NCBI GenBank assembly: GCA_000995135.1
Contig: LBWY01000003.1
Coordinates: 1-35,252 of the forward strand
Reading direction: 5' to 3'
Length of the DNA: 35,252 nucleotides
DNA from: Parcubacteria group bacterium GW2011_GWE2_39_37
GTDB lineage: Bacteria > Patescibacteriota > Patescibacteriia > Patescibacteriales > GWE2-39-37
In this document: positions 27,339 through 35,252 of the stretch, in pieces
Numbering within the stretch: position 1 is the first letter of the stretch
Layout: each line of letters opens with the position of its first letter
Program-made: the position numbers and the translations under genes
Notes under the pieces: model-generated
Told to the model about the DNA's origin: nothing
Database searches by the model: none
Seen by the model: the letters and a program-made list of their open reading frames with translations, nothing else

Positions 27339-28769
27339 ATGAAATTCTCAGAATATCTATCAATCTTAAAATCAACAGAAAGTCTTGATTCTGATCGAGA
27401 CGGTCTTTTGGATAAAGAAGAACTTGTTTGGGGCACTGACCCTTTTAATCCAGACACGGACGGAGATGGCATGAACGATGGTGATGAGATTAAGGCAGGC
27501 AGAAATCCTCTCGGTAAAGGCAGACTCAAAGATCTGTTCATTCCTCATCCAGGCAATGATTACAAGCCTCATGCACTCCATCCTAAAAGGATAGCCTTCC
27601 ATGCATCAGCAGCCCTTGCTATCAAGGCGATCGTTGTTGTCTTTTTGGTCAGCTTTCCAATCGATGCTTGGCTCATGCCGGATGTATTAAAAGAACAAAG
27701 TTTAAAAATCATCAGCCTGACCAATCAAATCAGAGCAGAGCAAGGCCTGAACAGATTGAAAGAAAATCAATCATTAAACCAGGCGGCTTATGAAAAAACT
27801 CATGACATGTTGTTGAATCAATATTTTGCTCATGTAAGTCCCAGCAAAAAAGGAGTGGCAGATTGGCTGAGAGCTGTTAAATATAATTTTGCGGTAGCCG
27901 GAGAAAACCTGGCAATGGGCTTCTCTGACCCCAACGAGGTTGTAGAAAAATGGAAAGAAAGCGAAACCCATTATGCAAATATAATCGACCCTGATTATAG
28001 AGAAATAGGCGTCAATGTCGCTAGCGGCAACTACAAAGATATAGACACCACTTTCATAGCACAACTATTTGGACAGCCGCAGATACAGAATTTTCAAGAA
28101 AAGAAAGTTTTGGGCAAATTGATAATCAATATCGCCAAGCAAGCTTCGGCCGAAAGTGCGACCGGCACAAAAAAGGATCTGATTTTAACTCCTACTGAAG
28201 AAAAAATATTGGGCGAAAAAGAAACTTCACCATCCCTAGACGAAACGAATGCAAATCCTTTGGTAAGCTTGTCATTGATCGAAGCGGAAGAGGGCAGGAG
28301 ACAGTTCTTGAAGGTTGAAGCACAACTGCCAACAAACGTCACCAAAGCATCACTTCTTTATGATGGGTACCCGATCGAACTTTCACGCTACGGCGCAAAT
28401 AATCTGAATCAATGGTCTGGGAACTATGTTATCTCAAAAAATTCAAATGACGATTCCAATATAGTAACGTTGGCGACATTAAAAACATTAGATACAAGCG
28501 GGGCCATCAAGACATTTGATGTCGACTCAAGCAATCTACGACCGACAAAGCCATCTTACTTTGATGAATACAGTTTTTTAAAAAATAATCCTTCACGCAC
28601 TATCACTCCATTGCTGTCGATATCGTCTGCATATTATTTTATTCTTTTGCTAATAGCTATTTTTGCATTATTCTTGAACATCTTTATAGAAATCAAAAAG
28701 CAACATCCGAAAATAATCTTATCAACTTTCAGTCTGATTTTTTTATTGACGATTCTCATATTAATTTAA
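27339..28769 (+). CDS. Membrane-anchored CAP/SCP-domain protein with thrombospondin type 3 calcium motifs
   Basis: 476 aa. Residues about 16-55 carry calcium-binding TSP3-type motifs (LDSDRDGLLDKEEL, NPDTDGDGMNDGDE). A membrane helix follows at about 89-107 (AALAIKAIVVVFLVSFPI). Residues about 125-245 form a CAP domain (LTNQIRAEQGLNRL; QYFAHVSPSKKG; AGENLAMGF; IDPDYREIGVNV), which keeps the His and Glu residues typical of the family. A linker and a beta domain follow, then two C-terminal helices (YYFILLLIAIFALFLNIFI; IILSTFSLIFLLTILILI). The CAP domain should face outside. Its role is unknown; YkwD-like CAP proteins act at bacterial surfaces. It has its own promoter and terminator. Confidence 0.85.
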   Translation: MKFSEYLSILKSTESLDSDRDGLLDKEELVWGTDPFNPDTDGDGMNDGDEIKAGRNPLGKGRLKDLFIPHPGNDYKPHALHPKRIAFHASAALAIKAIVVVFLVSFPIDAWLMPDVLKEQSLKIISLTNQIRAEQGLNRLKENQSLNQAAYEKTHDMLLNQYFAHVSPSKKGVADWLRAVKYNFAVAGENLAMGFSDPNEVVEKWKESETHYANIIDPDYREIGVNVASGNYKDIDTTFIAQLFGQPQIQNFQEKKVLGKLIINIAKQASAESATGTKKDLILTPTEEKILGEKETSPSLDETNANPLVSLSLIEAEEGRRQFLKVEAQLPTNVTKASLLYDGYPIELSRYGANNLNQWSGNYVISKNSNDDSNIVTLATLKTLDTSGAIKTFDVDSSNLRPTKPSYFDEYSFLKNNPSRTITPLLSISSAYYFILLLIAIFALFLNIFIEIKKQHPKIILSTFSLIFLLTILILI

Positions 28770-28796: not shown

Positions 28797-28824
28797 ATCC
28801 ACCTAAAATATGGTGGATTTTTTT
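28797..28824 (+). terminator. Rho-independent terminator of the CAP gene
   Basis: ATCCACC/GGTGGAT with an 8-nt loop, followed by a run of T. Confidence 0.85.
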
Positions 28825-29068: not shown

Positions 29069-29827
29069 ATGAAGTTAAAAACACTTTCAGCATTAACATT
29101 AGGTTTACTTTCTTTCACTTTCGCAGTAGGCCCGGTGCTAGCAGGCGAAGCATCAGAGGCAATCTCTCAAAGCAACGACGTAATTACTATTGAAAACAAT
29201 GCAAATGTAGAAAACTGCATCACCTCAGTTGCGACGACTGGCGGTAACTATGCTGGCGGCAGTATTGCTGGCAACGGCGGCGATGGTGGCGATGTTAATT
29301 TGGTCCAAGAAGAGAGTGAAGATCCAAAAGCTGGCAACGGCGGCGATGGTGGCAATGTTACCCAGGGCGGTTCAGTAACCACCGGCGATGCTTCTGTTTA
29401 TACAGAGGTTAAAAATGAAGTCAATTTGAATGAAGTTACTATTGAAAGATCTGCAGGAGCAACTACTTCATCTACAGATGGGGATAAATGCGACAATGAA
29501 TATGGTCATTGCAGAAAAACTGTAAAAAATACCTACAGTGAAAATAATGCAACAATTGAAGTCAAGAACAATACCCAAGTTGCAAACCAATTAACATCAA
29601 AAGCTGAGACTGGCTATAACGAAGCAAAAGGCAGTCTAGCTGGTGATGGTGGTCAAGGCGGTTCTATCGGAGGTCAAATCGGTTATTCATACGCACCGAT
29701 AATCGCTGGTAACGGCGGTAAGGGAGGCAGCGTAGAAGCTGGCGGCGTAGTAAGCACCGGCAAGGCTGATACCCAGACAAAAGTATTTAATTTTATTAAC
29801 AAAAACGTTGTAAGAATCAAGCGTTAA
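29069..29827 (+). CDS. Secreted Gly/Asn-rich repeat protein
   Basis: 252 aa with a textbook signal peptide (MKLKTLSALTLGLLSFTFAVGPVLA, cleavage after VLA). The mature protein is two tandem modules of about 90 aa. Each has an Asn-rich strand region (ENNANVENCITSVATTGGNY; VKNNTQVANQLTSKAETGYN), then Gly-rich loops (AGNGGDGGNV; AGNGGKGGSV), then GG.V.TG.A and an N.....N motif. Three Cys residues are present (ENC, KC, HC). There is no anchor or sorting signal. The pattern suggests a stacked beta-solenoid surface protein. It shares the TG/Asn motif with the next two genes. I recognise no named family. Confidence 0.75.
   Translation: MKLKTLSALTLGLLSFTFAVGPVLAGEASEAISQSNDVITIENNANVENCITSVATTGGNYAGGSIAGNGGDGGDVNLVQEESEDPKAGNGGDGGNVTQGGSVTTGDASVYTEVKNEVNLNEVTIERSAGATTSSTDGDKCDNEYGHCRKTVKNTYSENNATIEVKNNTQVANQLTSKAETGYNEAKGSLAGDGGQGGSIGGQIGYSYAPIIAGNGGKGGSVEAGGVVSTGKADTQTKVFNFINKNVVRIKR
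29267..29360 (+). repeat. 31-bp near-perfect direct repeat in the Gly-rich gene
   Basis: GCTGGCAACGGCGGCGATGG and 11 further bases occur at 29267-29297 and again at 29330-29360 with one mismatch. The repeat encodes AGNGGDGG(D/N)V. It points to recent local duplication or gene conversion. Confidence 0.85.
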
Positions 29828-29832
29828 TAAAA

Positions 29833-29899
29833 CTTAAGGAAGGAATCTCTTCCTTCCTTAAGCAAGATTTTGACTGATTTCAAAATCTTACTTAAGGAA
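29833..29899 (+). promoter_or_regulatory. Intergenic hairpins with a possible translational switch
   Basis: Hairpin 1 (CTTAAGGAAGGAA/TTCCTTCCTTAAG, 29833-29862) is a perfect 13-bp stem. Hairpin 2 (AAGATTTTGA/TCAAAATCTT, 29864-29889) is a perfect 10-bp stem. The sequence CTTAAGGAA recurs at 29891-29899, where it contains the Shine-Dalgarno AAGGA for the ATG at 29907. TTCCTTAAG (29854-29862) can pair with either copy, so the ribosome site can be free or blocked. No strong T tract follows hairpin 1. Confidence 0.55.
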
Positions 29900-29906
29900 T
29901 TGATAT

Positions 29907-30527
29907 ATGAAACCTGCAAAATTATCAAAGATCTTGGTTTTCATTTTGTTGGTCAGCTTTCCGCCAACAGTGCTAGCTGAAACATATCTTGAAAACAATT
30001 TCGTGGACATAAGGAATAATATAAATATTTCTGCCTCAACAGGGAATAATAAAAGCAACTCAATAAAAAATGGCAAAGTAGAATTGAAGGCAGAGGTGAG
30101 CAATGAAATCAATGGTGAAAATGTAAATAGCTATAAACTTGAAAAATCTTATGACACACAGAATGTAAAAATTGAATTAAAGAATGAAATTTCAAGCAAA
30201 AACAATGAAATAAAAACTGAAAATGAATTAAAGATAAACGACCAGGTTCAAATCCTGGAAAACAAAACAAATTATAAAAAAATAGAAGATAACCCTAAGG
30301 ATAATTTAAAAAAAACAGAAGACAATGCAAAAAAAATCATAGAAGAAATGCCGGCACAAAAAAATGATTCCCAAAAAAAGGCGGATCTCGCTCCTGTAAA
30401 TAAAATTTCTGATAATAAAAATGAAAATATCAAGGAAATACCATTCTGGAAAAAAATTACCGCAAATTTCAACAACTTTTATAAATTCATCAGCACAAAA
30501 ATAAAACATTTACATATATTAAATTAA
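29907..30527 (+). CDS. Secreted Lys/Asn/Glu-rich protein of unknown function
   Basis: 206 aa with a signal peptide (KLSKILVFILLVSFPPTVLA, cleavage after VLA). The mature start, YLENNFVDIRNNINISASTGNN, carries one copy of the Asn/TG motif shared with the flanking genes. Residues about 50-165 are highly charged and low in complexity and probably form extended or coiled helix (KIELKNEISSKNNEIKTENE). The C-terminus is basic and aromatic (FWKKITANFNNFYKFISTK). No enzyme motif was seen. The Shine-Dalgarno AAGGA, 8 nt before the ATG, overlaps the candidate switch. The next gene starts 12 bp downstream. Confidence 0.7.
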   Translation: MKPAKLSKILVFILLVSFPPTVLAETYLENNFVDIRNNINISASTGNNKSNSIKNGKVELKAEVSNEINGENVNSYKLEKSYDTQNVKIELKNEISSKNNEIKTENELKINDQVQILENKTNYKKIEDNPKDNLKKTEDNAKKIIEEMPAQKNDSQKKADLAPVNKISDNKNENIKEIPFWKKITANFNNFYKFISTKIKHLHILN

Positions 30528-30539
30528 GCAAAAAAAAAT

Positions 30540-33332
30540 ATGAAAAAAAATAAAAACCTCAAGGGACGTAAGATCATATTCTTCGTTTTGTCATGCTTTA
30601 TCCTCTCTGCATTGAACATCTTGCCCGTGATCAATGCATTAGCAGCTGACGAAGCACCAACAAGCACTACAGCCACTTCCACAGAAACCATACCGGAGCA
30701 AAGCTTGACTGGAGTCGTTACCGGACCAGGTGAATCACAACCAGGTACCTTAGAGGGAGTGGTCCAAACCAGTCCAACCAGCACTTCCGGCGTCATAAAC
30801 AACAATCAAGCTGATTTAGGTAATGGTATCGATACCACTGCATCCACTAGCGACAATGCAATTATGAATGCCGCAAGCAATCCAACAAGCACTTCCACCC
30901 CGGGATCAAACGGCACATCGACAGGCTCTACAATCGATACCGGCAACATCGATATTGCCAATGCGGTTGTCAATCTGGTCAATAATAATATCATCGGCAG
31001 CGGTGTACAATATTTGGTAAATATTTTTAAAAACTTGATTCAGGATGTTGATTTATCGGGCGTAGGACAAAGCGTGCCTACCCAAACCCTGGATATGACC
31101 AACAATAATGCCGGCACGATAGATAACAAGATAGTGATAAAAGCCGATACTGGAGAAAATATTATCGCCTCGTCTTCTGGGCCAAGCTTGATCGAAACTG
31201 GAGATATCAAGATTGCAAATGATGTAATAAATATGGCCAATATAAATATAGTCGGCAACGGGTGGTACTTTGCAGTGGTAAATATCTTTGGTGAATTGGA
31301 TGGGGACATAATCTTGCCGGCGATGATGGAAGAAGAAAACGAAGGATCTGCTTCTACTACTGAATCAAACTTGAAACATCCGCGTCATGAAAGAAAAATA
31401 AGAAAAGCAACGACCGAATTCTTGATCACCAATAAGAATAATAGTGAATTGAATAATAACATAAACATAAATGCAAATACCGGTGATAATTCGATTTCTT
31501 CATCAACCTATCAGAATATACTAAAAACGGGATCGGTAAATTCGACCGTAAATGCTTTTAATCTTGTAAACTACAATGTCTTCAGCAACTCTTGGAAATT
31601 TTGTAAAATCAATATATACGGCACCTGGGATGGGGTCATTCAAGGCCTTCCAGAAGGTTATGGATATTTCGAAGATGAGAACGGGGTAACTATCTTCGAG
31701 GAGCTCTCTGATTATGAAAAAAATCAACTATACTCTAAATTCTTACTAAGCAATAACAACAATGCGACAACCACCAACAACATAGATATTGATGCCAATA
31801 CAGGGAAGAATCTGATCCTTGACGGCTCTGGAGAAATCAAGACAGGAAACATCGACATAACTAACAATATCTTGAATTTTATCAATTCGAATTTCGTGGG
31901 CGATAATTGGCAATTCAGCTTGATAAATGTTTTCGGCAATTGGAAAGGCAATTTAGCTTTTGGCAAACCTGATCTTTGGATCACTCAATCAAATATTGAT
32001 AAAAAGTCATTGATGAGAGGTGAGGCCATCACCTATACGATCCTTTATGGAAATAAAGGTGACAGTTCTGCCACGGATGCAAAATTAAAATGCAATCTTG
32101 ATAACAGATTGGCATTTGTAAATTCAAGCAATCCCATAGGTGATTCTATGGACTGGACATTGGGCAAGATACCTCCCAACACTCAGGGCAGCATAACATA
32201 TACGGTTTATGCAAAAAATGATATCCCTGTCGGCGAAACACAATCAACCAGCAAACTAAGCATATCTGCTGTAGAATCGGACCGAGACCTATCAAATAAC
32301 AACCTGGACAGCTTGTTGATTTTGAATGGGGGCTCAAGCGGGGGTGGCAGTGGAGGTGGCGGCGGCAGTAGTAGTGGTAGTGCTAGCTCGGGTGGAGGAG
32401 GCGGGTCTGCACCAAGAGCGAACTTGGCAGTCATAAAGACTAATGATACGAACGGTCCTGTACATCCAGGGGATATTGTAAACTACAAAATAAACATCAA
32501 AAATACCGGCAATGCGAATCTTGATCAAGTAAAAGTAGCGGACGCTATATCAAATATTAAAGATGGTCAAGAGCTGGGACAGAATCTATGGGATCTTGGT
32601 ACCATTCTACCTGGAGAAGAAATAAATATTGATTACGCATTAGAAATCAAAGACAGCATCCAATCCGGCATATATATAAATCAAGCTACTGTAAAAGGTT
32701 ATGACAGTTATCAAAAAAAGAATATCGCTGCTCTGGCATCGTCTAAAATAAAAATTGATAATCTCAATCAGAATGGCAAGCTATCACGCTTGGCCTTCGG
32801 CAGAATCAGCAAGAAATTATCAGCCAAGCCAGGTGAATCGGTTGACCAAGAACTGATAATCACTAACAACAGCCTGCAAAAAATTGAAAAAGTAAACATA
32901 ACTGAAAAATTACCCAAAGGACTTCTGTTTGAAGATAAGAAAAATACCAAAACATGGACTTTAGAAAATATCGAACCCGGCAAGATAAAAAATATAAAAT
33001 ACAAGATAATGGTGGAAAAAAATGCTAAACCGCAAACTTACTCGATTACTACAATCGCCGATACAGACAAAGACGAAATGCCATTGAGCCTGATATTTAA
33101 ACTCAAAGTTGTCCCGGATCAAAAAGTTCTGGGTGTGAAAATCAATAACCCGGCAAAACTAAAAACCGCAAAAACAAAAGCCTTGCCTAAAGCTGTCGCC
33201 AAAGTGAAGACGCAGATAAAAAAATCGCCAGTGACTACCAATATCAAGAGCTCTGTAAAAAAAATCAATAATTTACCGAAAAAGATCATTCAGCTTCCGG
33301 GGAAGCTTATCTCTGCTATGGCTAAAAAATAG
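30540..33332 (+). CDS. Large secreted Asn/TG-repeat and DUF11-domain surface protein
   Basis: 930 aa with a signal peptide (IIFFVLSCFILSALNILPVINALA). After a Thr/Ser-rich linker come about four modules of 85-100 aa with the plan NN.I.I.A.TG.N, ..TG.I.I.N.I.N..N.N..., then W.F..IN.FG.W.G (for example NNIDIDANTGKN and NWQFSLINVFGNWKG). Three DUF11-like Ig domains follow (SLMRGEAITYTILYGNKGD; VHPGDIVNYKINIKNTGN; KPGESVDQELIITNNSLQ), the first two separated by a Gly/Ser hinge. The tail (about 65 aa) is strongly basic, with no membrane anchor. It is probably a structural or adhesive surface protein and possibly a substrate for surface glycosylation. A strong terminator follows. Confidence 0.8.
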   Translation: MKKNKNLKGRKIIFFVLSCFILSALNILPVINALAADEAPTSTTATSTETIPEQSLTGVVTGPGESQPGTLEGVVQTSPTSTSGVINNNQADLGNGIDTTASTSDNAIMNAASNPTSTSTPGSNGTSTGSTIDTGNIDIANAVVNLVNNNIIGSGVQYLVNIFKNLIQDVDLSGVGQSVPTQTLDMTNNNAGTIDNKIVIKADTGENIIASSSGPSLIETGDIKIANDVINMANINIVGNGWYFAVVNIFGELDGDIILPAMMEEENEGSASTTESNLKHPRHERKIRKATTEFLITNKNNSELNNNININANTGDNSISSSTYQNILKTGSVNSTVNAFNLVNYNVFSNSWKFCKINIYGTWDGVIQGLPEGYGYFEDENGVTIFEELSDYEKNQLYSKFLLSNNNNATTTNNIDIDANTGKNLILDGSGEIKTGNIDITNNILNFINSNFVGDNWQFSLINVFGNWKGNLAFGKPDLWITQSNIDKKSLMRGEAITYTILYGNKGDSSATDAKLKCNLDNRLAFVNSSNPIGDSMDWTLGKIPPNTQGSITYTVYAKNDIPVGETQSTSKLSISAVESDRDLSNNNLDSLLILNGGSSGGGSGGGGGSSSGSASSGGGGGSAPRANLAVIKTNDTNGPVHPGDIVNYKINIKNTGNANLDQVKVADAISNIKDGQELGQNLWDLGTILPGEEINIDYALEIKDSIQSGIYINQATVKGYDSYQKKNIAALASSKIKIDNLNQNGKLSRLAFGRISKKLSAKPGESVDQELIITNNSLQKIEKVNITEKLPKGLLFEDKKNTKTWTLENIEPGKIKNIKYKIMVEKNAKPQTYSITTIADTDKDEMPLSLIFKLKVVPDQKVLGVKINNPAKLKTAKTKALPKAVAKVKTQIKKSPVTTNIKSSVKKINNLPKKIIQLPGKLISAMAKK

Positions 33333-33348: not shown

Positions 33349-33384
33349 AAAATCACAGAATGTCAACCATTCTGTGATTTTTTA
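33349..33384 (+). terminator. Rho-independent terminator of the secreted-protein cluster
   Basis: AAAATCACAGAATG/CATTCTGTGATTTT is a perfect 14-bp stem with loop TCAAC, followed by T residues. It begins 16 bp after the stop of the 930-aa gene. Confidence 0.93.
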
Positions 33385-33506: not shown

Positions 33507-35252
33507 ATGAATATATTAAAAAAGATTCGCGTAAAAAATATGTTCTTTATAATTTTTTCCCTATTGTTGTTGAATGCTCTTCCGTTCACGGTTCTGGCAG
33601 CAGAATTATCGACAGACTTAACTGCTCCCATCGTCACTGCTGTTCCAACAAGCGACTCACAGATCAGCCTTACTTGGAGCAGTTCCACCGGAGCCGTCGG
33701 AGCAGTTACATACGGCATCTATAAAGACAGTAGTACCACCACTCTTGCCACGACTTTTGGCAACGATTTCAATGATGTCGGTTTGACCGCCTCAACCACC
33801 TATAGATATGTTATAGTCGCATCTGATGAATCAGGTGGAAGAGCGACCTCTACAGAAGTGTCGGCTACAACTTTGTCATCTGCTGCAACCCTCGTAGCCC
33901 CGGTAGTAACAGCAACCTCAATTTCTCCTAACCAGATAGACTTGAGCTGGGCTGCAGCAACCGGCGGAACAGGCACAATTACCTATGGTATCTTCAAGGA
34001 TGGTGCTACTCAATCAATCGCCACAACAACAGAATTAGATTTCAGTGACGCCAGCCTTCTTCCTGCCACCCCTCATAGTTATGTAATCGTTGCAACTGAT
34101 GATATCGGCAATAGAGCAACATCTACTGTGGTCACAGCAACGACAAAGCCGTTCACTGCGCCGGTATTAACTGCTATTCCGATAAGTTCGAACAGGATTG
34201 ATCTGTCTTGGTCTAGTACGACCGAAGCAGTAACAACTGTAACCTATAGTGTCTATCGAAATAACAGCACGATTACGACAACCGCTGGCAATAATTATAG
34301 TGACACCGGACTTCTTCCTTCTACCACTTACAGCTACAGAGTAGTCGCAGCAGATGAAGCGGGGAACAGAGCAACTTCTACAGAAGTGACCGCAACGACT
34401 TTGAATGGCACATCTACCAGCGGATTAACCAAGCCCATTGTTACAGCCATACCGGTTAGTGCTACCCAGATCAATTTAACCTGGAGCAGTTCAACGCAGG
34501 GAGTAGGGGATATCAGCTACAGAATATATAGGAACGGAAGTACAAGCACTACCGCTACGACTTTTGGCAATGAGTTTAACGATGTCGGGTTGGCAACTTC
34601 TACAACTTATAGATATATAGTAGTAGCTACTGACACCGCCGGCAGTCGTGCAACTTCAACTGAAGTTACCGCCACTACCTTGGGGACAGGAACAACTACG
34701 CCATCACTGACAAAGCCGATTGTCACAGCCACCTCGACTTCTCCTACACAGATAAATTTAACTTGGAGTAGCTCCACTCAGGCAGTTGGAAAAGTAACCT
34801 ATGGCATCTATAGAAATAGCAGCACTAGTACGATTGCAACCACTTTTGGCAATGAATTTAATGATGTCGGCTTGTCCGCTTCGACAACATATAAGTATAT
34901 TGTTGTTGCTACAGATGAGGCAGGGAACAAAGCAACTTCTTCAGAAGTATCCGCAACAACAAAATCTGCAACTTCAACCATCATATTGTCTGCTCCAAAA
35001 AATCTGAATGCGATTCCTTTGTTCCAAGTTCAACTCAATTGGAGCAGTTCGACAGCTACCAATACCCTAGTCGCAGGCTACAAGATCTATAGAAATGATC
35101 TGCAGATCGCAACAACCACCCTAACAACTTATTTGGATACCGGCCTCAATCCTTCCACTAACTACACTTACAAAATCGCAGCCTTTGATGCGGCCGGAAA
35201 CATCTCTGACTTCGCCATAATCAATGTGACTACTCAAGGACATGCAAATGGC
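33507..35252 (+). CDS. Secreted fibronectin type III repeat protein (3' truncated by window edge)
   Basis: Missing from the ORF track because no stop occurs before the window ends; I read at least 582 codons open in this frame. Start ATG 33507 gives a signal peptide (MFFIIFSLLLLNALPFTVLAA). Six FN3-like domains of about 90-95 aa follow. Each opens with P.VTA.P.S..QI.LTWSSST and continues with YGIY+.....T.A.TFGN.F.DVGL..STTY.Y.VVA.D..G..ATS.EV.ATT. Thr and Ser are very abundant, suggesting O-glycosylation sites. The repeats are close to each other in DNA as well as protein. FN3 arrays usually act as spacers or binders, so a catalytic or anchoring domain may lie beyond the window. Confidence 0.88.
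   Translation, partial: MNILKKIRVKNMFFIIFSLLLLNALPFTVLAAELSTDLTAPIVTAVPTSDSQISLTWSSSTGAVGAVTYGIYKDSSTTTLATTFGNDFNDVGLTASTTYRYVIVASDESGGRATSTEVSATTLSSAATLVAPVVTATSISPNQIDLSWAAATGGTGTITYGIFKDGATQSIATTTELDFSDASLLPATPHSYVIVATDDIGNRATSTVVTATTKPFTAPVLTAIPISSNRIDLSWSSTTEAVTTVTYSVYRNNSTITTTAGNNYSDTGLLPSTTYSYRVVAADEAGNRATSTEVTATTLNGTSTSGLTKPIVTAIPVSATQINLTWSSSTQGVGDISYRIYRNGSTSTTATTFGNEFNDVGLATSTTYRYIVVATDTAGSRATSTEVTATTLGTGTTTPSLTKPIVTATSTSPTQINLTWSSSTQAVGKVTYGIYRNSSTSTIATTFGNEFNDVGLSASTTYKYIVVATDEAGNKATSSEVSATTKSATSTIILSAPKNLNAIPLFQVQLNWSSSTATNTLVAGYKIYRNDLQIATTTLTTYLDTGLNPSTNYTYKIAAFDAAGNISDFAIINVTTQGHANG

Follow-up and report, generated by a model that had tools for sequence, protein, structure and literature searches.

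Three consecutive genes in the window, that is, the whole analysed stretch of 35,252 nucleotides from contig LBWY01000003.1 of Parcubacteria group bacterium GW2011_GWE2_39_37, encode proteins with signal-peptide-like starts, the first and third of which have an Asn/TG repeat module in common. On balance, we are inclined to regard this trio as an example of a surface-assembly system of the Patescibacteria with two components and an optional third part, in which a free protein (type A, here ORF1) would polymerise on an anchored one (type B, here ORF3). An earlier note on the same DNA had already taken the genes for one surface system; absent from that note were the three DUF11 domains of ORF3 and the stem-loop that follows ORF1.

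The gene trio and its repeat module

The three genes are probably read as one unit, with terminator-like hairpins on both sides and the following features.

28797..28818, plus strand: terminator-like hairpin that follows the preceding CAP-domain gene and bounds the unit upstream
29069..29827, plus strand: ORF1, type A, 252 aa; signal peptide, two Asn/TG modules, Gly-rich insertions, no anchor
29156..29449, plus strand: Asn/TG module 1 of ORF1
29528..29824, plus strand: Asn/TG module 2 of ORF1
29833..29889, plus strand: intercistronic stem-loops after the ORF1 stop (29833-29862 and 29864-29889)
29907..30527, plus strand: ORF2, short partner, 206 aa; signal peptide, one module
29979..30140, plus strand: Asn/TG module of ORF2 (weak profile match, E=0.02)
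30540..33332, plus strand: ORF3, type B, 930 aa; signal peptide, four modules, three DUF11 domains
30783..31055, plus strand: ORF3 module 1 (degenerate)
31083..31316, plus strand: ORF3 module 2
31416..31646, plus strand: ORF3 module 3
31737..31961, plus strand: ORF3 module 4
31971..33089, plus strand: the three Ig-like DUF11 domains of ORF3 (approximate for the last two boundaries)
33349..33381, plus strand: terminator-like hairpin with a T-run, which closes the unit

Signal peptides were called by eye and by hydropathy, membrane helices by hydropathy; a signal-peptide-like start is found in all three ORFs, as first read. The C-terminus of ORF1 reads ...INKNVVRIKR. ORF2 contains repeated 'INGE'-type strands and an amphipathic C-terminal segment, while ORF3 possesses a Gly-rich linker with the DUF11 part and a Lys-rich tail that lacks a membrane helix. 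Upstream of the trio lies the gene of a CAP-domain (YkwD-like) protein (27339-28769); a CAP gene is also present near the trio in loci L040, L041 and L080 and may be a regular neighbour of the system. Just downstream (33507-35252), the gene of a large secreted fibronectin type III repeat protein is cut by the contig end.

The module spans about 55-100 residues, in which an Asn-rich strand is followed by 'A.TG.N', a variable loop, another 'TG' and 'N..N.N'; the ORF3 copies add a W.F..IN.FG.W.G block. The copy numbers originally given, two in ORF1, one in ORF2 and roughly four in ORF3, hold; ORF3 has four, the first of them degenerate. Pairwise shuffle z-scores for copies of the same protein amount to about 21 in ORF1 and 6 to 21 in ORF3, and those between proteins range from 1.2 to 8.9. 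An HMM built from 66 ORF3-type modules, with every ORF1 and ORF2 sequence left out, matches the window ORF1 with E=1.5e-11, whereas the top-scoring one of 1680 shuffled decoys reaches 0.17; ORF1 and ORF3 thus have the module in common beyond chance. With the same HMM and decoys the window ORF2 reaches E=0.02, which is weak when taken alone; some of its homologues score at the same place (0.0075, 0.039), and ORF2 probably carries the module as well. The claim of a module common to all three proteins is therefore firm for the ORF1-ORF3 link and less so for ORF2.

The supposition that no named domain covers the module was borne out when known families were searched. No Pfam model lies over the modules in the window ORFs, 15 type B module regions gave single-member weak matches only against Pfam, NCBIfam and PHROGs, ten proteins of other classes (five of type A, five of type B) produced one weak family match, and the module profile had no credible match among PDB sequences; assignment of the module to a known family was accordingly dropped. 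A phage or plasmid origin was also discarded, there being neither a tblastn match nor a viral contig. A literature search, whose scope stopped short of preprints and most subscription journals, returned no description of such a system. What Pfam does recognise in the window ORF3 is DUF11 (PF01345), in three stretches of the C-terminal half (E=4.9e-20; 72.4 bits for a gathering cut-off of 24.6). DUF11 accompanies the modules within the window's class. Pfam recognised no domain in the five type B proteins that were tested from other parts of the phylum, so that DUF11 is an accessory stalk.

The AlphaFold2 model of ORF3 residues 78-592 (pLDDT 78, pTM 0.71) consists almost entirely of beta strands, 9-13 residues long and connected by short turns. 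This strand pattern suggests that the modules would form antiparallel sheets rather than a solenoid, and the beta-solenoid stacking that had been envisaged is not favoured. Foldseek searches with the model gave matches of about 120 columns to Ig-like domains, which probably come from its DUF11 part. The model of ORF1 was poor (pLDDT 55).

Conservation of the pair and division of features

Among 60 relatives, two further families of the order have homologues of ORF1, ORF2 and ORF3 arranged as in the window, one of the genomes being Candidatus Falkowbacteria RIFOXYA2_FULL_47_19 (G051; the other is G006), so that the trio does recur elsewhere; three more genomes from the family to which the window belongs yielded no match. 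A genome-wide scan over all species, made with two narrow peptide patterns, found only the Falkowbacteria relative. In 381 genomes of the class, the ORF3 profile matches 18 and the ORF1 profile 11, and A and B are found together in nine (0.5 expected, p=6e-12, the loci in this and the other counts and tests not being phylogenetically independent). In these class loci A precedes B at a short distance on the same strand, and seven loci, the window included, have ORF2 homologues between the two (the L082 homologue was identified by eye).

Of 380 genomes sampled across the phylum, 40 encode an ORF3-type protein. As a broader 40-row profile raises this number only to 41, the ORF3-type family is discrete, and it is patchy in its distribution. 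A module-only gene with a signal peptide but no anchor is situated directly upstream of B in 34 of 39 loci, the window's genome excluded; in the five others B is present and a recognisable A is absent. About 16 of the 39 phylum loci (a count made from maps) also encode a short module protein as a third member, which often has a membrane helix at its C-terminus. The short partner is thus optional and its position varies between lineages, and the constant core is the ORF1-ORF3 pair: what stands of the three-part system first proposed is the pair, while ORF2 is not a fixed member.

The features of the two partners were compared in 57 proteins of type B and 49 of type A. Type B proteins have four modules in 35 and five in 15 of the 57, whereas type A proteins have between one and six. 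The block described above as added in ORF3 is indeed specific to this type, its FGxWxG-like part being present in 96 % of type B and 6 % of type A proteins. A C-terminal membrane helix is found in 40 of 54 type B proteins, as opposed to any membrane helix in two of 49 type A proteins, and a signal-peptide-like start in 46 of 48 type A proteins. Signal peptides and the C-terminal helix of type B support the surface location predicted for the system. Divergence of A and of B is correlated (Mantel r=0.78), which, as expected, fits co-inheritance but by itself is no proof of contact between them. Together with the conserved block and the A-B synteny across the phylum, it upholds the view that the genes belong to one system.

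With a Lys-rich tail and no membrane helix at its C-terminus, the window ORF3 may be attached in a different manner from most of its homologues; it also lacks an LPXTG-type sorting signal there, and no sortase gene was seen in the immediate neighbourhood of the trio in the window. Sortase genes adjoin the system in L041 (6032-6709) and L084 (6891-7478), in the latter beside a large multi-domain surface protein (SpaA, VWA and DUF11 domains). In L082, L083, L087 and L090, a type B protein devoid of a membrane helix is followed by a small membrane protein with an FETDQQYQAR-like start, perhaps a separate anchor. A module-rich protein in L043 (7021-9906) has a C-terminus that looks dockerin-like by eye (GDLNGDGKVDDADF).

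The stem-loop after the A gene

The best hairpin after A has a median energy of -28.7 kcal/mol in 49 pairs and of -13.6 kcal/mol in 87 control gaps on the same strand and of similar length, obtained by simple ORF calling (p=6e-13); hairpins of -15 kcal/mol or below occur in 96 % of the pairs and 43 % of these gaps. Dinucleotide shuffling gave a median z of -4.6 after A compared with -0.8 in 162 controls (p=4e-15), and -5.8 for the stem-loop of the window, where the minimum-energy fold of the 29833..29889 region is a variant pairing of the arms of the same two stem-loops. The structure begins at a median of 9 nt past the A stop codon. It was not retained as an ordinary terminator, since a U-tract follows only 7 of 48 strong stems. 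A GCACTTC loop is common to five A-B pairs from a single subgroup; it sits on varying stems, and in the imperfect alignment of these loci 5 of the 11 predicted base pairs have changed on both sides. Neither the window nor the stem-loops from ten loci gave an Rfam match.

Certain operons for pili and coats have comparable hairpins between cistrons, which favour the product of the first gene. By this analogy the stem-loop suggests that A is made in excess: it would let A exceed ORF2 and B within one transcribed unit. A free ORF1-type protein with a stem-loop after its gene is a likelier bulk subunit than ORF3, and the initial reading of ORF3 as the major repeat fibre has been replaced by that of an anchored base or scaffold.

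Modes of assembly and known surface systems

In the mechanism that we propose, ORF1 would be the freely secreted subunit, probably present in the largest amount, and ORF3 the cell-bound base, carrying four modules on its Ig-like DUF11 stalk. B would present matching modules, or the B-specific FGxWxG block, on which A could dock and polymerise into a coat or fibre; the two proteins would then co-assemble directly through their like repeats. Some A homologues carry an additional N-terminal domain that by eye resembles carbohydrate-binding folds (F5/8-type, a weak match with E=0.0085). ORF2 might act as a short adaptor or nucleator with a single module.

In functional terms, the nearest parallel is the two-component S-layer of Sulfolobus, in which an outer SlaA goes with a membrane-bound SlaB that has three beta-sandwich domains (PMC10903991). 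S-layers have also been reported in some members of the Minisyncoccota (PMC13293708), and A might accordingly be a sheet over the cell with B as its membrane-bound stalk. The division of labour between a free and an anchored protein and the Ig-like stalk of ORF3 agree with such an arrangement; a C-terminal membrane helix is largely confined to type B, but the window ORF3 itself has none. However, type A proteins often number only 150-250 aa, which is small for an S-layer protein, and about 89 % of the sampled genomes do without the system, so that we consider an S-layer unlikely. The organisms differ as well, being bacteria here, and a stem-loop separates the A and B genes; the module that A and B have in common may be a further difference.

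Alternatively, A and B could be separate secreted adhesins or decoys whose repeat was shared by duplication, with no joint assembly. Ig-like stalks are common in fibrillar adhesins, the module is widespread in proteins of many lengths, and some A homologues possess, by eye, extra N-terminal domains. Independence of the two proteins nevertheless accords poorly with the strict order of A and then B over many families, with the conserved intercistronic stem-loop and with the clean partition of features, and we regard it as distinctly improbable.

A functional-amyloid fibre in the manner of curli (CsgA/CsgB) or TasA, which likewise combine a secreted repeat subunit with a surface-bound partner, A here being the major subunit and B or ORF2 the nucleator, would suit the Asn-rich repeats and the TasA-like and signal peptidase genes that adjoin the system in L080 and L088, but is highly improbable given that curlin, chaplin and TasA are missing from the Pfam matches of the module regions and window ORFs (their models being assumed present in the library), that the repeat pattern differs, and that the predicted ORF3 strands are too long for a short-coil solenoid. 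In these two loci (L080:11356-17521 and L088:11424-14608), the genes beside the system comprise TasA-like starts (FAAFEAHVINVTA, by eye) and a gene of signal peptidase S26 type; peptidase S26 is a matched family, while the likeness to TasA is one of sequence pattern only.

Returning to the docking of free A on anchored B, two further comparisons may be drawn. ORF3 resembles other DUF11 (PF01345) surface proteins in its three DUF11 domains, which in this system are accessory. Type IV pili, which are the known attachment organelle in this phylum, are similarly secreted, surface exposed and possibly engaged in host contact. On our own reading, however, A and B have Sec signal-peptide-like starts and repeat modules rather than a pilin architecture. 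Moreover, almost every member of the phylum is reported to have type IV pilus genes (PMC13293708), as against about 11 % of the sample for the A/B system.

The bacteria that carry the system are ultra-small and probably episymbiotic. It is conceivable, and we put it forward tentatively, that they possess a new assembly found across the phylum, in which free and anchored proteins sharing a module polymerise, a stem-loop sets the A:B ratio and the product is perhaps a coat or fibre for host contact. Type IV pili apart, knowledge of how the Patescibacteria build their surface and contact their hosts is scant. The discrete gene pair, in which a recognisable module, a split between free and anchored partners and a linked RNA element come together, provides a defined target that lends itself to searches in cultured members and in proteomes and to assembly tests.
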